A stretch of 64,000 nt of DNA from Clostridia bacterium (GTDB taxonomy: Bacteria > Bacillota > Clostridia > Oscillospirales > Acutalibacteraceae): the NCBI GenBank assembly GCA_017516745.1, contig JAFXBF010000015.1:1-64000 (forward strand), given 5' to 3'. The position numbers were made by a program, and so were the translations under genes. Of this stretch, positions 8,472 through 16,841 are shown one piece after another (position 1 is the stretch's first letter; each line of letters starts with the position of its first letter). The notes beneath the pieces were generated by a model, which was not told the origin of the DNA, did not search any database, and saw only the letters and a program-made list of their open reading frames with translations.

Positions 8472-11400
8472 ATGCACTTCACAGAAGAATTATTTGAACA
8501 AGCAGTCATAGAGTTGTTAGAAAAGATGGGTTACACACATATCTACGCACCAGATATGAACAGAGAAGATTTTTCAAGTCCTTTTCTGGAATCTACACTT
8601 CTTGATAGTCTTGTTCGCATCAATAAAAAACTTCCCATTGAAGCAATTAACGAGGCAATATATAAGCTCAAAAATTTCGAAAATGGAAGTCTTGTTCAGA
8701 AAAACAAGGCTTTTATGAACTATTTGCAAAATGGTGTTGAAGTAAAATATTTCTCCAAGGGTGAAGAATGTTCTTCTATAGTCTACCTAATTGATTATAC
8801 AAAAAGCGATAACAACACCTTCTATGCGGTTAATCAATATACATATATCGAAAATGGCAATAATCGCCGCCCTGACATCATCTTATTTATTAACGGTTTG
8901 CCTCTTGTTCTGATGGAATTAAAAAGCCCTTCAAAAGATGAAATTGGTGCAGAAAACGCATATAATCAAATTCGCAATTATATTCAAGATATACCTTCAA
9001 TATTTATCTACAACGCAATTTGTGTAATTAGCGATTTAACAACAAATAAAGCAGGTACAATCACTTCAGGTTTTGACCGTTTTATGGAATGGAAATCAAA
9101 AGACGGCCGAGAAACCTTGTCATTGGCTGATTTCGAAACGTTTTATGAGGGTATATTCCAAAGAGAACGACTTCTCGATATAATCAAAAACTTTATTCTT
9201 TTTTCAGGTGATGCTCAGAATCCTATCAAGATTCTTGCGGGGTATCATCAGTATTTCGCTGTCAAAAAAGCTGTTGAAAGAGCAAAAGTTGCTACTACCA
9301 CAGATGGTAAAGGCGGTGTTTTTTGGCATACTCAGGGAAGCGGTAAATCGCTCTCAATGGTATTTTATGCCCATCTTTTACAAGAAGCTCTGGACAGTCC
9401 GACTATTGTTGTTATGACCGATAGAATTGACCTTGATGACCAGTTATATTCTCAATTCTCAAAATGTGCAGAATTCCTTAGGCAGACTCCTGTTCAAGCT
9501 GAAAGCAAGGCTCATTTAAAAGAATTGCTTGAAGGAAGAAAAGCAAACGGTATTATATTCACAACAATGTTTAAATTTGAAGAGAGCGAAGAGCCTCTTT
9601 CTACCCGTCGAAACATTGTTGTTATGGCTGATGAAGCTCACCGTGGACAGTATGGCATGGACGAGCGTGTTGTAATGACTGAAAACGACCAAGGTGAAGC
9701 TGAGGCAAGAATTGTTATAGGTAACGCCCGTATTATCCGTGCTGCTCTTCCGAATGCAACCTTTATCGGATTTACTGGAACTCCGGTATCCTCAAAAGAT
9801 CGAAATACTCGTGAAGTTTTTGGCGATTACATTGATATTTACGATATGACACAGGCTGTAGAAGACGGCGCAACACGTCCTGTTTATTATGAAAGCCGTG
9901 TAATACATTTGAAACTCGACCAAAACACACTGGCTTTAATTGACTCTACATACGACATCCTTGAACAGCAAGCCGATGCCGTAACCATAGAAAAGAGTAA
10001 AAAAATGTTGGGTCAAATGGAAAGTGTGCTTGGTGCAGATTCTACCATTGACTCTCTTGTGAATGACATTGTTACACATTATGAAAAAGGTAGAGCCAAT
10101 CTTTTGACAGGTAAGGCGATGATTGTTGCATATTCAAGACCTATTGCAATGAAGATATATCGTCGTATTATGGAGATTAGACCTGATTGGAAAGAAAAAG
10201 TTGGAGTTGTTATGACAAGCGGTAACAACGACCCGGAAGATTGGAAAGAAATCATAGGAACAAAACATCACAAAGAAGAACTTGCACGAAAATTCAAGGA
10301 TAACAACGATCCTATGAAGATAGCAATTGTTGTCGATATGTGGCTTACAGGATTTGATGTTCCATCTATGGCAACAATGTATATCTATAAGCCAATGCAT
10401 GGTTACAATCTTATGCAGGCAATCGCACGAGTCAACCGAGTATTCAAAGATAAAGAAGGTGGCTTGGTAGTAGACTATGTAGGAATAGCTTCTGCTCTTA
10501 AAGCTGCAATGAACGAATACACGGCACGTGACCGTTCCAGATACGGTGATATGGATATTGCAAAAACAGCATATCCTAAATTTCAAGAAAAATTGCAAGT
10601 TTGCCGTGATTTGTTCCACGGCTTTGATTATAGCGGGTTCATCAATGGCTCGCCCCTTACTATGGCGAAACTGATTTCAGAAGGCGCAAACTTTGTACTT
10701 GATGTTAAATCTCCCGAAAGAAAAGACTTATACCTTAAAGAAGCTTTGCTACTGAAACAGTCGATGTCACTTTGTTCAAGTATGACAACAGACAAAGAAC
10801 GTCGTGAACAGGCATATTTTGAAGCTGTGCGTTCAACCGTTGTCAAGCTCACTTATGGTGGCACAAATGGTAGACCGCTATCACTTAAAGAAATCAATGC
10901 ACAAATCAACGAACTACTCAAAGCTAGTATTCAAAGTGAAGGTGTTATAAATCTTTTCGATAGTAAGACTGTAGGAGAGAATTTTTCACTGTTTGATCCT
11001 AATATTTTAGAAGAAATTTCTAAAATGAAAGAAAAAAATATAGTGGTTGAAATTTTGAGAAAGTTGATGGCTGAGCAAGTATCAATATACAAAAGAACCA
11101 ATGTTGTTAAGTCTGAAAAATTCTCCGAGAAAATCGCAAAACTGATGAACGCATACTATAATGGGCTCATTACCAATGAAGAAGTAATAAAAGAGCTTTT
11201 GGAAGCAGCTCAAGAAATCGCTAATCTTCACAAAGAAGGAGAGCAACTCGGATTAACAACTGAAGAATTAGCATTCTATGATGCACTCACCAAACCGCAA
11301 GCTATTAAAGACTTCTACGAAAACGATGTTCTTATTGAAATGACACGTGAATTGACCGAGTTGCTTCGTAAGAACCGTACAATCGACTGGCAAAAAAAAG

Positions 11401-11537
11401 AAACAGCACGTGCAGGAATGCGCAAGATGGTTAAGCGACTGCTTAAAAAATATAAATATCCGCCTGAAGGCGTAGAAGATGCTGTTCAGACCGTTATGTC
11501 TCAGTGTGAACTTTGGACAGATAATATGGAGGTATAA
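8472..11537 (+). CDS. hsdR: Type I restriction endonuclease subunit R
   Basis: 1021 residues, the size expected for HsdR. The N-terminal nuclease is of PD-(D/E)xK type (RRPDIILFINGLPLVLMELK, Asp about 135, ExK about 148-150). The motor has Walker A TQGSGKS at about 287-293, Walker B DEAH at about 387-390, and the TGTP motif of superfamily 2 at about 436. A C-terminal helical region (about 850-1020) binds the methylase. It cleaves unmodified DNA after translocation. RBS AGGAGG precedes the ATG at 8472. The reading frame and all motifs are intact, so the system should be active, provided the accessory genes do not change its mode. Confidence 0.95.
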   Translation: MHFTEELFEQAVIELLEKMGYTHIYAPDMNREDFSSPFLESTLLDSLVRINKKLPIEAINEAIYKLKNFENGSLVQKNKAFMNYLQNGVEVKYFSKGEECSSIVYLIDYTKSDNNTFYAVNQYTYIENGNNRRPDIILFINGLPLVLMELKSPSKDEIGAENAYNQIRNYIQDIPSIFIYNAICVISDLTTNKAGTITSGFDRFMEWKSKDGRETLSLADFETFYEGIFQRERLLDIIKNFILFSGDAQNPIKILAGYHQYFAVKKAVERAKVATTTDGKGGVFWHTQGSGKSLSMVFYAHLLQEALDSPTIVVMTDRIDLDDQLYSQFSKCAEFLRQTPVQAESKAHLKELLEGRKANGIIFTTMFKFEESEEPLSTRRNIVVMADEAHRGQYGMDERVVMTENDQGEAEARIVIGNARIIRAALPNATFIGFTGTPVSSKDRNTREVFGDYIDIYDMTQAVEDGATRPVYYESRVIHLKLDQNTLALIDSTYDILEQQADAVTIEKSKKMLGQMESVLGADSTIDSLVNDIVTHYEKGRANLLTGKAMIVAYSRPIAMKIYRRIMEIRPDWKEKVGVVMTSGNNDPEDWKEIIGTKHHKEELARKFKDNNDPMKIAIVVDMWLTGFDVPSMATMYIYKPMHGYNLMQAIARVNRVFKDKEGGLVVDYVGIASALKAAMNEYTARDRSRYGDMDIAKTAYPKFQEKLQVCRDLFHGFDYSGFINGSPLTMAKLISEGANFVLDVKSPERKDLYLKEALLLKQSMSLCSSMTTDKERREQAYFEAVRSTVVKLTYGGTNGRPLSLKEINAQINELLKASIQSEGVINLFDSKTVGENFSLFDPNILEEISKMKEKNIVVEILRKLMAEQVSIYKRTNVVKSEKFSEKIAKLMNAYYNGLITNEEVIKELLEAAQEIANLHKEGEQLGLTTEELAFYDALTKPQAIKDFYENDVLIEMTRELTELLRKNRTIDWQKKETARAGMRKMVKRLLKKYKYPPEGVEDAVQTVMSQCELWTDNMEV

Positions 11538-11540
11538 TTT

Positions 11541-12524
11541 ATGGACGACAGAATTATTTGGGGCATTCATACAATGGATGATCATATGTTCCTATCTAAA
11601 AATGTAATTGCTATTGGTTGGAAAGCGATGGGCGATTTATCCGAACTTTCCCCCAACAGAGACGCGTTTAAAAATAAATATCAATCAGTATATCCTGATT
11701 CAAAACTCCAAGCAGTAGCAAACAGTGCAGGTATGCTGTATAGGTTTGTTTATGAAATGAAAATTGGCGATTATGTTGTTTTCCCCTCAAAATTCAATCG
11801 TGAAATTAATATAGGTATTGTAGAAAGCGATTACATATATTCTCCTGCAGAAACAGAATATGTTCAAACTCGCAGAGTTAAATGGTTAAAGCATTTTCCA
11901 AGAACAGCCTTCTCTCAAGGTGCACTATATGAAGTAGGTTCTGCAATGTCATTCTTCTCGATCAAAAATTATGCAGAAGAATATCTTAATGCATTGGAGA
12001 ATCCTGCAAAAAAAGCACTAATAGCCTCTGATGATGAAGAAACTGTAGCAAAGACAGCAGAAGATATTATTGAAGCCACCAAAGATTTCATCTTAAAGGA
12101 ATTAAGTAAAAATCTTAAGGGATACGATTTAGAAGCTTTCATTTCAGATTTACTTCGTGCAATGGGATACCATACTACTTTATCACCTCATGGCGGAGAT
12201 AGAGGCATTGACATAACTGCATATAAAGATGAATTGCCCCCTCGTATTTTAGTTCAGGTTAAAAGCGGTGATAGCGACATTAAAGAATCAACTATACAGT
12301 CGCTCAAAGGTGCAATGAGAGAAGGCGACTATGGATTGTTTGTTACACTTGCTAACTACACCAAAAATGCACAGAAATATTTAAAAAACACACCTATCAT
12401 TCGTGGAATCAACGGCTCTGAACTTGTAGATTTAATATTAAAATATTACGATTTACTTAGCGAGGAATATAAAAGTATAATTTCATTACAGAAAGTATAT
12501 ATTCCGGTTGTTAAAGGTATGTGA
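11541..12524 (+). CDS. Mrr-like restriction endonuclease
   Basis: 327 residues, three bases after hsdR. The C-terminal half carries an Mrr_cat-type PD-(D/E)xK fold: GYHTTLSPHGGDRGIDI (Asp near 225) and PPRILVQVKSG (QxK near 237-239). The N-terminal 150 residues (IWGIHTMDDHMFLSKNVIAIGW, GDYVVFPSKFNREINIG) resemble the modified-base or small-ligand reading module that accompanies some Mrr nucleases, possibly EVE/PUA-like. Such type IV enzymes cut foreign modified DNA. In the same operon as a type I system it would extend the restriction range to methylated invaders. Assignment of the N-terminal domain is tentative. Confidence 0.82.
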   Translation: MDDRIIWGIHTMDDHMFLSKNVIAIGWKAMGDLSELSPNRDAFKNKYQSVYPDSKLQAVANSAGMLYRFVYEMKIGDYVVFPSKFNREINIGIVESDYIYSPAETEYVQTRRVKWLKHFPRTAFSQGALYEVGSAMSFFSIKNYAEEYLNALENPAKKALIASDDEETVAKTAEDIIEATKDFILKELSKNLKGYDLEAFISDLLRAMGYHTTLSPHGGDRGIDITAYKDELPPRILVQVKSGDSDIKESTIQSLKGAMREGDYGLFVTLANYTKNAQKYLKNTPIIRGINGSELVDLILKYYDLLSEEYKSIISLQKVYIPVVKGM

Positions 12525-13984: not shown

Positions 13985-14017
13985 CGCCTCAGTAGTTTTT
14001 ACTGGGGCGAATTTGTT
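13985..14017 (+). terminator. Terminator after alcohol dehydrogenase
   Basis: CGCCTCAGTA (13985-13994) pairs with TACTGGGGCG (14000-14009), followed by AATTTGTTT. The hairpin overlaps the end of the convergent SLOG gene. Confidence 0.7.
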
Positions 14018-14433
14018 TCTATAATTATTTTATTCATCTTCCCTGCCGTTTGTTTAAACTCCCATGCACCGCCGAACGGTCGAGTGACATAGGTTACGAC
14101 GATGTCAGATTTATTGAGCATCCATTTATTGCGGTAGTTGATAGCGAAGCGGCGTGGAACGTTTTCTATTCCTTCGGGGAGGATTGAGTGCTCGTCGTAT
14201 TCGGCATTCTTGCCCGGCATATAGGCAAGGACAACGTGATATTTTATCGGGTAAGTCTTTGACAAAACCTCAAGCTGACGGCGCACCATAGCATCGAAAT
14301 TGCCGTGGTTGCCGACGTGAAACACAGTTGCATTTTTATTTTCAATCAAGTCTATCAGAGTCAGTCGCAAGGCTGGCTCTGTTTCTTTTGGGGTATCTCT
14401 GTGACCGAAGAAGGTTACTGTTTGCTCTTTCAT
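13999..14433 (-). CDS. SLOG-domain (DUF1273/YpsA-like) protein
   Basis: 144 residues. The opening strand and loop TVTFFGHRDTP, the central FHVGNHGNFDAMVRRQLE and the C-terminal NKSDIVVTYVTRPFGGAWEFKQTA are typical of the SLOG/Rossmann-like superfamily (GHRD subgroup), which binds nucleotides or nucleotide-derived ligands. A precise function is not known to me. The ATG follows AGGGTGAGATT. Upstream lies a terminator hairpin (14455-14482), a 16-pair stem and a consensus promoter, so expression probably depends on read-through of a structured leader. This link between a nucleotide-binding SLOG protein and an RNA leader is the notable point. Confidence 0.75.
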   Translation of the reverse strand: MKEQTVTFFGHRDTPKETEPALRLTLIDLIENKNATVFHVGNHGNFDAMVRRQLEVLSKTYPIKYHVVLAYMPGKNAEYDEHSILPEGIENVPRRFAINYRNKWMLNKSDIVVTYVTRPFGGAWEFKQTAGKMNKIIIETNSPQ

Positions 14434-14446
14434 AATCTCACCCTAA

Positions 14447-14642
14447 TAAAAAATGCCCGACGGACTTTAATGTTCGTCGGGCTATCTTAATGACCTCGCT
14501 ATCTGCAGCATCTCCACTTAAGGAGCATCCGAGCGGGGCGTTAATTCAAACGCGCAGCCCATATAAACATATTGTATGTGTATAGCGGTCATCTAAGATT
14601 TATGTAATCTGTTTTTGCCAATACTAAACAAAGTAGAGGTTC
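14447..14642 (-). ncRNA. Structured leader RNA ending in an intrinsic terminator, before the SLOG gene
   Basis: Transcription from the promoter at 14649-14677 would give an RNA of about 195 bases. Arms 14583-14599 and 14484-14501 form a 16-pair stem (ATCTTA, ATGACC and GCTA with their complements) with one single-base and one two-base bulge. Enclosed are small hairpins at 14538-14553 (GCGTT/AACGC) and 14512-14525 (CTCC/GGAG). The RNA ends with GCCCGACG (14455-14462) paired to CGTCGGGC (14475-14482), then UUUUUU on the minus strand. The terminator lies only 14-22 bases before the SLOG start codon, as in transcriptional riboswitches. A free-standing small RNA with read-through is the alternative. 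I could not match it to a known family. Confidence 0.65.
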
Positions 14643-14648
14643 ATGTTA

Positions 14649-14677
14649 ATTATATCTAATTTAAATAGATATGTCAA
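14649..14677 (-). promoter_or_regulatory. Perfect consensus promoter of the SLOG leader RNA
   Basis: On the minus strand TTGACA (14677-14672) is followed after 17 bases by TATAAT (14654-14649), a full sigma-A consensus. It points into the structured leader. The region up to 14752 also serves the divergent XRE gene, which has TATAAT at 14723-14728 but no clear -35. Confidence 0.85.
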
Positions 14678-14752
14678 TGCACATTGATAAATAGATTAGA
14701 TATTTATGCGATGTGTGTTTAGTATAATTATATGCAAAGGTGGGTGAGTTCT

Positions 14753-15058
14753 ATGGAGAAAGAACAATTCAGCAAAAGATTGGTTGAATTAAGAATGAAT
14801 AAAGGCGTGTCCGCTCGTGATATGAGTTTATCAATCGGACAGAGTGCAGGCTACATCAACAACATTGAAAACGGTGTGAACTTTCCTTCAATGACCGTGT
14901 TCTTTTACATCTGTGAGTATCTCGGTGTAACTCCGATGGAATTCTTTGACACCGAAACAAACAACCCGACAAAAGCAAAAGAGTTGCTTGATGCAACCAA
15001 GAGCCTAAGCAACGAGCAGTTGGAACATCTGATTGCGATTGCAAAGGGATTGAAATAA
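14753..15058 (+). CDS. XRE-family transcriptional regulator
   Basis: 101 residues. The helix-turn-helix covers about 8-62 (FSKRLVELRMNKGVSARDMS, then SAGYINNIENGVNFPSM). The tail has a short helical extension (TKAKELLDATKSLSNEQLEHLIAIAKGLK) that resembles the dimerisation tail of small Clostridial Cro/CI-type regulators. ATG 14753 follows GGTGG at nine bases; an upstream ATG at 14732 lacks a site. It is divergent from the SLOG leader and could regulate that promoter, since both promoters lie within 75 bases. A terminator follows directly. Target and signal are unknown. Confidence 0.8.
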   Translation: MEKEQFSKRLVELRMNKGVSARDMSLSIGQSAGYINNIENGVNFPSMTVFFYICEYLGVTPMEFFDTETNNPTKAKELLDATKSLSNEQLEHLIAIAKGLK

Positions 15059-15286: not shown

Positions 15287-16189
15287 TTAGAACAATTTAC
15301 TGTTTACAACATTCTGTAATGCTTTTACAGCGGTTGAATACTCTACTTTGTCAAGCAAGATTTTTTCGGTTATATCCTGATAATCCTTTTTGTAAACTTC
15401 CTTATCAGTTATCTCTTGAAGAAGAGCATTCATATCAATTTCATCTTTTGCTGAATGACAGTTTTGGTGACCTTTTCGTTCTTCAAAAACATCTTTTGCA
15501 AGCTTTCTTAATTCTTCGTTTATCTCGACAATCTCTAAAAGTTTGTAAATATCGTAAATGTGTCGGGAATGTTCTTGTACTGCATCAGAAAGATAATAAT
15601 CTCCTAAGGCATACAGCTTATCTATCAAGGTTCTCTCTGCAGATTGAACATTGATGCTGAAAGGCTCAAGACCGTATTCAGCAATGAGATCATCATAACC
15701 GTTTTCTTTCAAATAATCATAAATGATGCTTGTTGCTTGCATTTCTTCACACGGATAAGCCTTAATATAAACTGCTGTTTCAACTAAAAGATATTCTTTC
15801 AGGTAGTTGGCAATAAAAACAGAAGGGAAATCAATTACATATTTATTATAATCTCTTCGGCTTCGTACATTGTCAGGATTGGCTAGAGTAAATCCGAATT
15901 CATTAATAACAGAAACAATGTTTGCCTTCAGATTCTTTCTTTGTCCTTCTGTTGGTTTGCTTTCCGTTTCAATGTTTAAATCAATATCTTCTGAAAAACG
16001 GTTTATAATTTTATAGCATTTTGAAAGAGACGTACCGCCTTTAAAAATTATATTAGGCTGCAGATCCTTTATTCTTTTAAGAAACAGAGTAACATAGTAG
16101 TCTTTTTCTATAATTTCAGGCGCAATTCCCTTGTCGTTTGCTACCCTTAACACTACCTGTTCAAAAATTTCTTTGTTATGGTGTAACAC
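15287..16189 (-). CDS. AbiEii/AbiGii-type nucleotidyltransferase toxin
   Basis: 300 residues. The nucleotidyltransferase core shows FKGGTSLSKCY (GG at about 51-52) and SEDIDLN at about 66-72, the GS/x-D-x-D metal-binding pattern of AbiEii/MenT-type toxins. Members block growth by modifying tRNA or similar targets. Start chosen is GTG 16189, with GAGG nine bases upstream; the more upstream in-frame TTG at 16210 has no ribosome site. The GTG lies 14 bases inside the end of the antitoxin gene, giving translational coupling. Together the pair should provide abortive phage defence or element maintenance. Confidence 0.85.
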   Translation of the reverse strand: MLHHNKEIFEQVVLRVANDKGIAPEIIEKDYYVTLFLKRIKDLQPNIIFKGGTSLSKCYKIINRFSEDIDLNIETESKPTEGQRKNLKANIVSVINEFGFTLANPDNVRSRRDYNKYVIDFPSVFIANYLKEYLLVETAVYIKAYPCEEMQATSIIYDYLKENGYDDLIAEYGLEPFSINVQSAERTLIDKLYALGDYYLSDAVQEHSRHIYDIYKLLEIVEINEELRKLAKDVFEERKGHQNCHSAKDEIDMNALLQEITDKEVYKKDYQDITEKILLDKVEYSTAVKALQNVVNSKLF

Positions 16190-16796
16190 TGTAAATAACC
16201 TCGCTTTCAATAAGATTACGCATTACTTTATCAGGAAAAACAGGAGCATATTCTGTGATTTTCTTGCGAGTTATAGAGTTGTTTTTGATATAGTTTTTTA
16301 TAATCATTTTTCGTTCATCATCAAGAAAAGAAGGAGTGATGTCATTCATTAACTCAAGAAAAGTCAACACTGCAACATTTGAATCGGTAATTGTAGTTCT
16401 TGCTTTGCGAAGCAACACTTTTTGATTACCTACATACACATCACGAACATTTGACGGCTCATTATTTGTATAAATCTCAATTACATTTGACATCTGTGTA
16501 GTAAGTCTTAACTGATTCTGAAAAGTAACACCGGAATAATATCCGATTGTGTTATTACCATCAGAAATATATTTCTTTTCAATAACTTTGCGAGGATTTA
16601 GCAAACTTTTTCCAAAAACAGTATCTGTAGGAATGTAATAAACACCTTTTTCAAATCTAATTAGTTTACCTTCTGTAACTAAAGCATTTAACTGTTTATA
16701 TATCCAAGGTTTAGAATAATTTTCAAATGTAATTTCATTAGACATAATTGGTTCGTTCACTCCAAATTGTTCAAACAAATAATCAAAAAATATCAT
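16176..16796 (-). CDS. AbiEi-type antitoxin (type IV TA, winged-helix)
   Basis: 206 residues. N-terminal winged helix (FENYSKPWIYKQLNALVTEGKLIRFEKGVYYIP) followed by an AbiEi C-terminal-like region (NTIGYYSGVTFQNQLRLTTQMSNVIEIYTNNEPS) as in DUF6088/AbiEi antitoxins. ATG 16796 lies nine bases after AGGAG; the in-frame TTG at 16805 is too close to it. AbiEi proteins bind inverted repeats in their own promoter; such a repeat (ATTATAACA and its inverse) brackets the promoter here. The gene overlaps the toxin gene, and both form a bicistronic unit. Confidence 0.82.
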   Translation of the reverse strand: MIFFDYLFEQFGVNEPIMSNEITFENYSKPWIYKQLNALVTEGKLIRFEKGVYYIPTDTVFGKSLLNPRKVIEKKYISDGNNTIGYYSGVTFQNQLRLTTQMSNVIEIYTNNEPSNVRDVYVGNQKVLLRKARTTITDSNVAVLTFLELMNDITPSFLDDERKMIIKNYIKNNSITRKKITEYAPVFPDKVMRNLIESEVIYSVTP

Positions 16797-16841
16797 CAGA
16801 CACAACTCCTTTCTTCTATAGTATGTTCTATTTTCAATGTG

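Follow-up and report, generated by a model that had tools for sequence, protein, structure and literature searches.

A structured RNA with an adjacent terminator ahead of a SLOG-like gene in Clostridia

What RNA lies between the promoter and the SLOG-like gene at this locus, and how is it related to the gene that follows? The first-pass annotation of the window, i.e., the whole stretch of 64,000 nucleotides from a Clostridia bacterium that was analysed here, had proposed an undescribed riboswitch or attenuator. Taking all parts together, the best reading, at a probability of roughly 0.55, is that an HTH-controlled promoter gives a small RNA ending at a terminator, and that the SLOG-like protein is produced when transcription reads through it. 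Copies of the RNA and related loci elsewhere are referred to by L numbers.

Anatomy of the locus

Promoter, closing stem, terminator and SLOG-like ORF are all present on the minus strand between 14677 and 13999, see Table 1. This part of the first-pass annotation is borne out: the promoter lies where it was placed, the closing stem, described as 16 pairs, has 17 P1 pairs when folded, the inner hairpins are P2 and P3, and the terminator with its U run is listed by our own scan. Between 14400 and 14800 there are 2 promoter-like sites, compared with a mean of 1.9 in shuffles; the one detailed here is the full consensus match. The folded 206-nt stretch has an energy of -59.9 kcal/mol, and 0 of 200 dinucleotide shuffles fold equally stably (z -3.6). 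The terminator hairpin itself has -16.5 kcal/mol. It is absent from the standard terminator scan because its loop of 12 nt exceeds the 8 nt permitted there, while our scan allows a loop of 3-18 nt on a stem of 7-12 with no fewer than 4 G-C pairs, and asks for 5 or more T among the 9 bases that follow.

Table 1. Features of the locus, in coordinates of the window
Feature	Position	Strand	Basis
sigma-70/SigA-type promoter TTGACA-17-TATAAT	14649..14677	-	12/12 consensus bases
palindrome ATATCTATTTAAATTAGATAT across spacer and -10	14652..14672		sequence inspection
P1 5' arm (AUCUUAGAUGACCGCUAU)	14582..14599	-	folding and covariation
invariant ACACA, 3' of P1 5' arm	14577..14581	-	invariant in 10/10 aligned rows
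P2 hairpin, within variable interior	14531..14560	-	folding
P3 hairpin (CUCC...GGAG), within variable interior	14512..14525	-	folding
P1 3' arm (AUAGCGAGGUCAUUAAGAU), 2-3 nt bulge 3' of AUAGC	14484..14502	-	folding and covariation
intrinsic terminator: stem 14482-14475 / 14462-14455, T run 14454-14448	14448..14482	-	own scan
AGGGTGA, possible ribosome-binding site of SLOG-like ORF	14444-14438	-	position just upstream
SLOG-like ORF, 144 aa	13999..14433	-	ORF call and protein profiles
divergent XRE-type HTH regulator	14732..15058	+	HTH_19, E 3e-9

The protein had been called a SLOG protein, which stands in part. It has a weak similarity to Pfam YpsA (E 0.024, 15 bits, under the cut-off of 27.7) and to phrog_289 (E 5e-6), and a homologue of the related L053 protein, at 36% identity, carries the annotation "SLOG family protein". 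As the profile match is below the curated cut-off, with the weaker support from phrog_289, we call it SLOG-like. No SLOG relative was found among solved structures. There are two groups of SLOG-like proteins, 26-29% identical to each other; compared with the window protein, identity is 29% for that of L053 and 26% for that of L054.

The surroundings differ between loci. In the window, an AbiEii-type nucleotidyltransferase toxin gene and an adjoining, weakly DUF6088-like partner (15287-16805) are possibly an AbiE-like type IV toxin-antitoxin pair, and at 8472-12524 a gene for a type I restriction R subunit, with HSDR_N and other matches, precedes one for an Mrr-type endonuclease, a possible defence neighbourhood. 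A SpoU-type rRNA methylase gene lies beside the HTH-RNA cassette in L004 (1719-2534, Pfam E 1e-35) and L023 (1429-2247, E 2e-35), on different sides, and this neighbourhood is a possible insertion hotspot. In L014, a serine recombinase gene with Resolvase and Recombinase domains (284-2143) is directly upstream of the cassette.

Copies of the RNA and their conserved core

After merging duplicates (L002=L020, L003=L007, L004=L055, L005=L049, L024=L052, L045=L048) there are at least 20 distinct copies of the RNA, a lower bound since some searches were insensitive. A SLOG-like ORF is directly 3' of the RNA in 18 of the 20; the two copies without it are L004 and L050, the latter with one P1 change. 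Eleven copies surfaced via protein search; RNA or DNA searches gave 3 of these too, as well as a fourth that is partial. Together with the later core-based searches this biases the set towards SLOG linkage and an invariant core. Thirteen copies, the window included, were found by DNA, pattern or RNA-model searches in which SLOG was not required, and 11 of these 13 are SLOG-linked. L002-L005 were found through DNA similarity. Scanning genome contigs with the window protein gave 40 loci, of which covariance model R1 finds the RNA in 11 and not in 25; left out of these 36 assessable homologues are L009 and L010, with just 10 nt of contig upstream of the ORF, and the partial matches L029 and L040. 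In L013, R1 has a weak match on the other strand (13.9 bits, E 3.2), which we disregard.

Among 300 family genomes, 8 have R1 matches, at 9 places in all. The exact core pattern gave 13 places in 11 genomes, and when three with long reading frames and no second arm were dropped, 10 places in 9 of 398 family genomes remained; the reversed pattern had 0 matches. Model R2 and a second pattern added L129 and L138, which belong to two other families in the order. Over 295 order genomes R2 had 7 matches, one of them real (L129) and six with E 0.04-0.84, two of which look like chance when read; as R2 missed the window itself, this low count is not evidence of absence. A pattern for short interiors only is present in 2 of 375 genomes, and one of the two matches in another pattern run (L137) has no second arm. 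The window genome has one copy. Among 391 class genomes the exact 16-base core occurs in the window only. Among the 30 loci listed for L053-protein relatives in 148 class genomes, a script finds the core only at the window, and R2 finds none at the other 29 (best match L088, E 2.7). The window RNA has no match in the phage and plasmid collections. Pattern searches of viral contigs gave 0, 22, 0, 0 and 0 stretches, the 22 being without second arm, and viral contigs with SLOG-like proteins gave 1 and 3 relatives, all of them lacking the core.

The first-pass annotation recognised no Rfam class, and we agree: 0 of 4227 models match anywhere in the window at gathering score, the best scores for the RNA are far under the cut-offs, and 8 other loci give only a tRNA elsewhere and two low matches. 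Its proposal of an undescribed structured RNA before a SLOG-like gene is thus supported by the 20 copies, the compensatory changes below and the lack of an Rfam match; no earlier description of a SLOG-linked RNA was found in the open-access literature searched. 6S RNA, which was named as an alternative, is also a structured RNA with a long closing stem. It has no support, as there is no Rfam covariance model match, and the RNA described here also differs in having a core of down to 56 nt and a linked SLOG-like gene.

The core, UGA-Y-C-GCUAU-ACACA ... GAUAGC ... UCA, is invariant in 10 representative aligned rows, the base between UGA and C being C, or T in L024. Compensatory changes in homologues, a check proposed in the first-pass annotation, were found in outer P1, where 7 of 11 pairs are changed on both sides, e.g., AUCUU/AAGAU, UUCC/GGAA and AUCC/GGAU. 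The P1 covariation score is 0.264 compared with 0.125 when shuffled, with 0 of 500 shuffles as high, and with the partner shifted by 1-3 columns the score does not exceed 0.106. These scores come from rows with a shortened interior, with the structure derived from the same rows and several copies found with core models, all of which favours the result, and kinship alone can push covariation above shuffles; the P1 covariation is support for the structure and not proof of it. In P2, 4 of 10 pairs change on both sides (7 aligned copies, L024 being gapped there), and a hairpin at the position of P3 also folds in L004, L005 and L023.

The interior is highly variable, giving a core length of 56 to about 135 nt. 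It has 15 nt in L053 and L129 (and by eye in L138), 41-43 nt in L051 and L024, 73-80 nt in the window group, L004, L005, L050 and L023, and 92 nt in L054; for the window the value is 78 nt from identical copies, and 82 nt when read in the gapped alignment row. Among 18 cores, 17 fold with z between -5.2 and -2.1, and L054 folds no better than its own shuffles (z -0.3). Interiors, terminator sequences, HTH types and protein groups differ between copies, yet the core stays the same; since it is kept despite changing promoter, interior and protein group, a constant partner acting in trans is likely. From this it can be speculated that the RNA forms a new family in which a single unchanging partner, be it RNA polymerase, some other host factor or the SLOG-like protein itself, recognises the core, making HTH-RNA-SLOG an RNA-governed effector system; we hold this tentatively, as a possibility with less than even odds.

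Two other explanations of the conserved arms have very little probability. The conserved ATG in the P1 5' arm could open a short ORF (MTAIH...) of a leader peptide attenuator, and copies with the ATG do encode MTAIH, most of them reaching a stop within about 6-24 codons by eye. However, by eye there is no ribosome-binding sequence, no residues are shared past about codon 6, L024 has TTG, and pairing explains the ATG bases, so that such a peptide is scarcely credible. In L129 the same frame passes through the terminator into the SLOG-like ORF, which we judge to be chance. Harder still to credit is a miniature inverted-repeat transposon with repeats resembling the RNA stem: it would account for inverted arms, variable filling and many loci, but not for the single copy in the window genome or for a terminator, with compensating arms, in every copy.

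Promoter, terminator and exchange of the RNA

Our scan finds a terminator 3' of the RNA in each of the 20 copies, whether SLOG-linked or orphan, and its arms show compensating changes among copies. Scanning the 130 nt before the ORF in RNA-free SLOG-like loci gave a match in 2 of 25, both of them by eye the ACCCGATTACGGGT operator palindrome. From GATAGC to the terminator arm there are 20-24 nt in 12 copies, i.e., P1 abuts the terminator, and from the start of GATAGC to the ATG of the SLOG-like gene 65-71 nt in the 18 SLOG-linked copies (partly counted by eye: L012, L045, L051, L054 and L138). Three of these 18 ORFs have defects: L005 is truncated, L138 has an in-frame stop, and in L045 the contig ends inside the ORF. 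With an intrinsic terminator so close, the majority of polymerases should halt at this point, giving a small RNA.

The first-pass annotation suggested a switch in which AGCCC and GGGCU pair and disturb the terminator. In the window both GGGCT (14560-14556) and AGCCC (14483-14479) exist, but the pairing is not conserved, as GGGCU is present in 3 of the 12 copies tested, all of them window-type. When the terminator 3' arm is not yet made, P1 is still formed in 12 of 12 predicted folds, and the 5' arm has differing partners among these copies, at an unpairing cost of 0.9-7.6 kcal/mol. No shared, mutually exclusive antiterminator was predicted among the 12. With P1 stable, the partners differing and GGGCU in so few copies, a shared antiterminator switch is unsupported; a copy-specific one is conceivable. 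A metabolite riboswitch, which the leader position, the structure and the invariant unpaired bases would fit, lacks support for the same two reasons (GGGCU in few copies, no shared alternative pairing), and an interior varying between 15 and 92 nt and the lack of an Rfam class give no indication of an aptamer. We consider it very unlikely.

The term attenuator fares better only in that a terminator lies between promoter and gene in every copy found; a shared antiterminator is not predicted. In a regulated form, a protein or RNA polymerase would bind the P1 core and permit read-through. Phage put RNAs act through RNA polymerase itself to allow terminator read-through. The abutting P1 and the same core across HTH, protein and interior types, suggestive of a constant partner, argue for such regulation; the antiterminator result, the two copies without a gene and the fact that no site of a known antitermination factor was identified argue against it, and on balance it is unlikely.

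The best upstream promoter has a 17-nt spacer in all 17 copies tested and scores 9.5-12.5, compared with 7.5-9 for the best site inside the RNA; the closest case is L051, with 9 inside and 9.5 upstream. By this scoring, no internal promoter better than the upstream one was found within the RNA of the tested copies. Against 60 shuffles, 7 of the 17 upstream promoters beat all, and the other 10 were equalled by 3-50 shuffles (L051 by 50), so that they do not stand out clearly. The palindrome ATATCTATTTAAATTAGATAT is the probable operator of the divergent HTH protein, whose true start, from comparison with relatives, is likely the second ATG at 14753. By eye there are at least 4 types of HTH protein across the copies, and Pfam confirms HTH domains in the four tested. 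Divergent regulator-SLOG pairs also recur by eye among L006-L045 with several unrelated regulator types and operator palindromes, which suggests regulator swapping at the start of the gene.

Comparison of nine copies with the window in 50-nt steps points to exchange of the RNA. L014, L020 and L045, which have other HTH types, share 38-52% identity with the window in the upstream 200 nt and 88-100% across RNA and terminator; the jump is by eye at the P1 5' edge, and over the latter half of the gene L020 is back to 54-64%. L005 rises from 38-46% to 62-86%. L011, L012, L021 and L022, with the window HTH type, are similar throughout the upstream part, and L023 is reversed, with 58-80% upstream and 52-60% over the RNA. 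Identity jumps in both directions show that RNA and promoter have separate histories, and judging from these alignments the RNA is swapped between HTH/promoter types. Further, the minimal RNA with an L053-type protein is found behind two HTH types (L129 and L138), and among loci with the L024-type operator L024 has the RNA and L006 and L015 lack it. The L006 protein is 90% identical to that of the window, yet has no RNA. On a protein tree whose 37 rows include 14 with the RNA, parsimony gives 8 changes, at least 4 of them forced by well-supported branches, and 7 of 500 shuffles of the RNA label are as low. The presence of the RNA is thus clustered but mobile, and the RNA is not needed for the function of the protein.

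The two copies without a SLOG-like gene fit a trans-acting RNA better than a pure leader. It could then be a free regulatory RNA acting by base pairing, with SLOG-like gene expression a by-product. Termination at orphan loci too is in line with this, as is L004, where a promoter-like sequence (by eye) and the SpoU-type rRNA methylase gene follow the RNA. Against it, 18 of 20 copies precede a SLOG-like ORF at nearly constant distance and the window genome has a single copy, and we regard this explanation as quite unlikely.

We suggest for the favoured reading, an HTH-controlled and terminated RNA followed by read-through, that the HTH protein controls the divergent promoter, presumably by repression. 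Transcripts would first yield the structured RNA, with a core of the lengths given above, ending at the adjacent terminator, and the SLOG-like gene, served by the same promoter, would be expressed through read-through alone. The RNA could then be an exchangeable module that reduces expression of the gene in cis and perhaps has effects in trans too. In the simplest view, the invariant core (P1 inner stem, asymmetric bulge and ACACA) would be the binding site of one partner, a host factor or the SLOG-like protein. Shared and exchanged between species of gut bacteria, the RNA probably limits how often the SLOG-like gene is made.

Comparison with known systems

SLOG proteins have been proposed as nucleotide sensors or enzymes in conflict systems, and the same source reports that overproduction of YpsA, a SLOG protein, impairs cell division in B. 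subtilis and S. aureus (PMC6459960). If the SLOG-like protein behaves alike, tight limits on it could matter. The window protein shares with the YpsA/SLOG superfamily a weak profile similarity, below the Pfam cut-off, and differs in being part of a cassette that also has an HTH gene and sometimes this RNA.

Type III toxin-antitoxin systems (ToxIN, CptIN and TenpIN) have RNA, terminator and effector gene in one transcription unit, as outlined in PMC5086642, and the same order of RNA, Rho-independent terminator and protein gene is predicted here. The RNA might accordingly neutralise a harmful SLOG-like protein, with the terminator keeping the RNA in excess. Besides the layout, the effect of excess YpsA, the HTH-RNA-SLOG unit standing among unrelated genes in the loci read and an RNA kept without protein gene in L004 are consistent with this. 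However, the protein is by sequence only distantly YpsA-like, the RNA is absent from 25 of 36 assessable homologues, including that of L006, and the core stays constant with proteins as distant as those of L053 and L054. In type III systems the RNA has tandem repeats, and none were found in the four leaders tested: direct repeats of at least 12 nt are lacking in L053, L051 and L024, and in the window are limited to the two arms of the terminator. The effector is not recognised as an endoribonuclease either, as the window protein has no match of ToxN/CptN/TenpN type in Pfam, NCBIfam or PADLOC. Without repeats or a known toxin-type endoribonuclease, and with RNA-free close relatives, the module is not filed as type III, and neutralisation of this kind is an unlikely explanation, although by analogy the module may partly work in that way.

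A similar layout is that of RCd22-AbiF in Clostridioides difficile, described in PMC12373285 as a SigA promoter, an ncRNA of ~100-130 nt, a Rho-independent terminator and read-through to the protein gene, with no second promoter predicted at that locus. There the effector is an Abi_2 protein and the RNA has two abiF motifs; here the effector is SLOG-like, the core is single and not repeated, an HTH regulator gene lies divergently, and many relatives are RNA-free. If the favoured reading is true, it gives a defined and testable handle on the control of SLOG proteins, which is poorly known so far, and the "RNA, terminator, effector" layout extends past endoribonucleases and Abi proteins.
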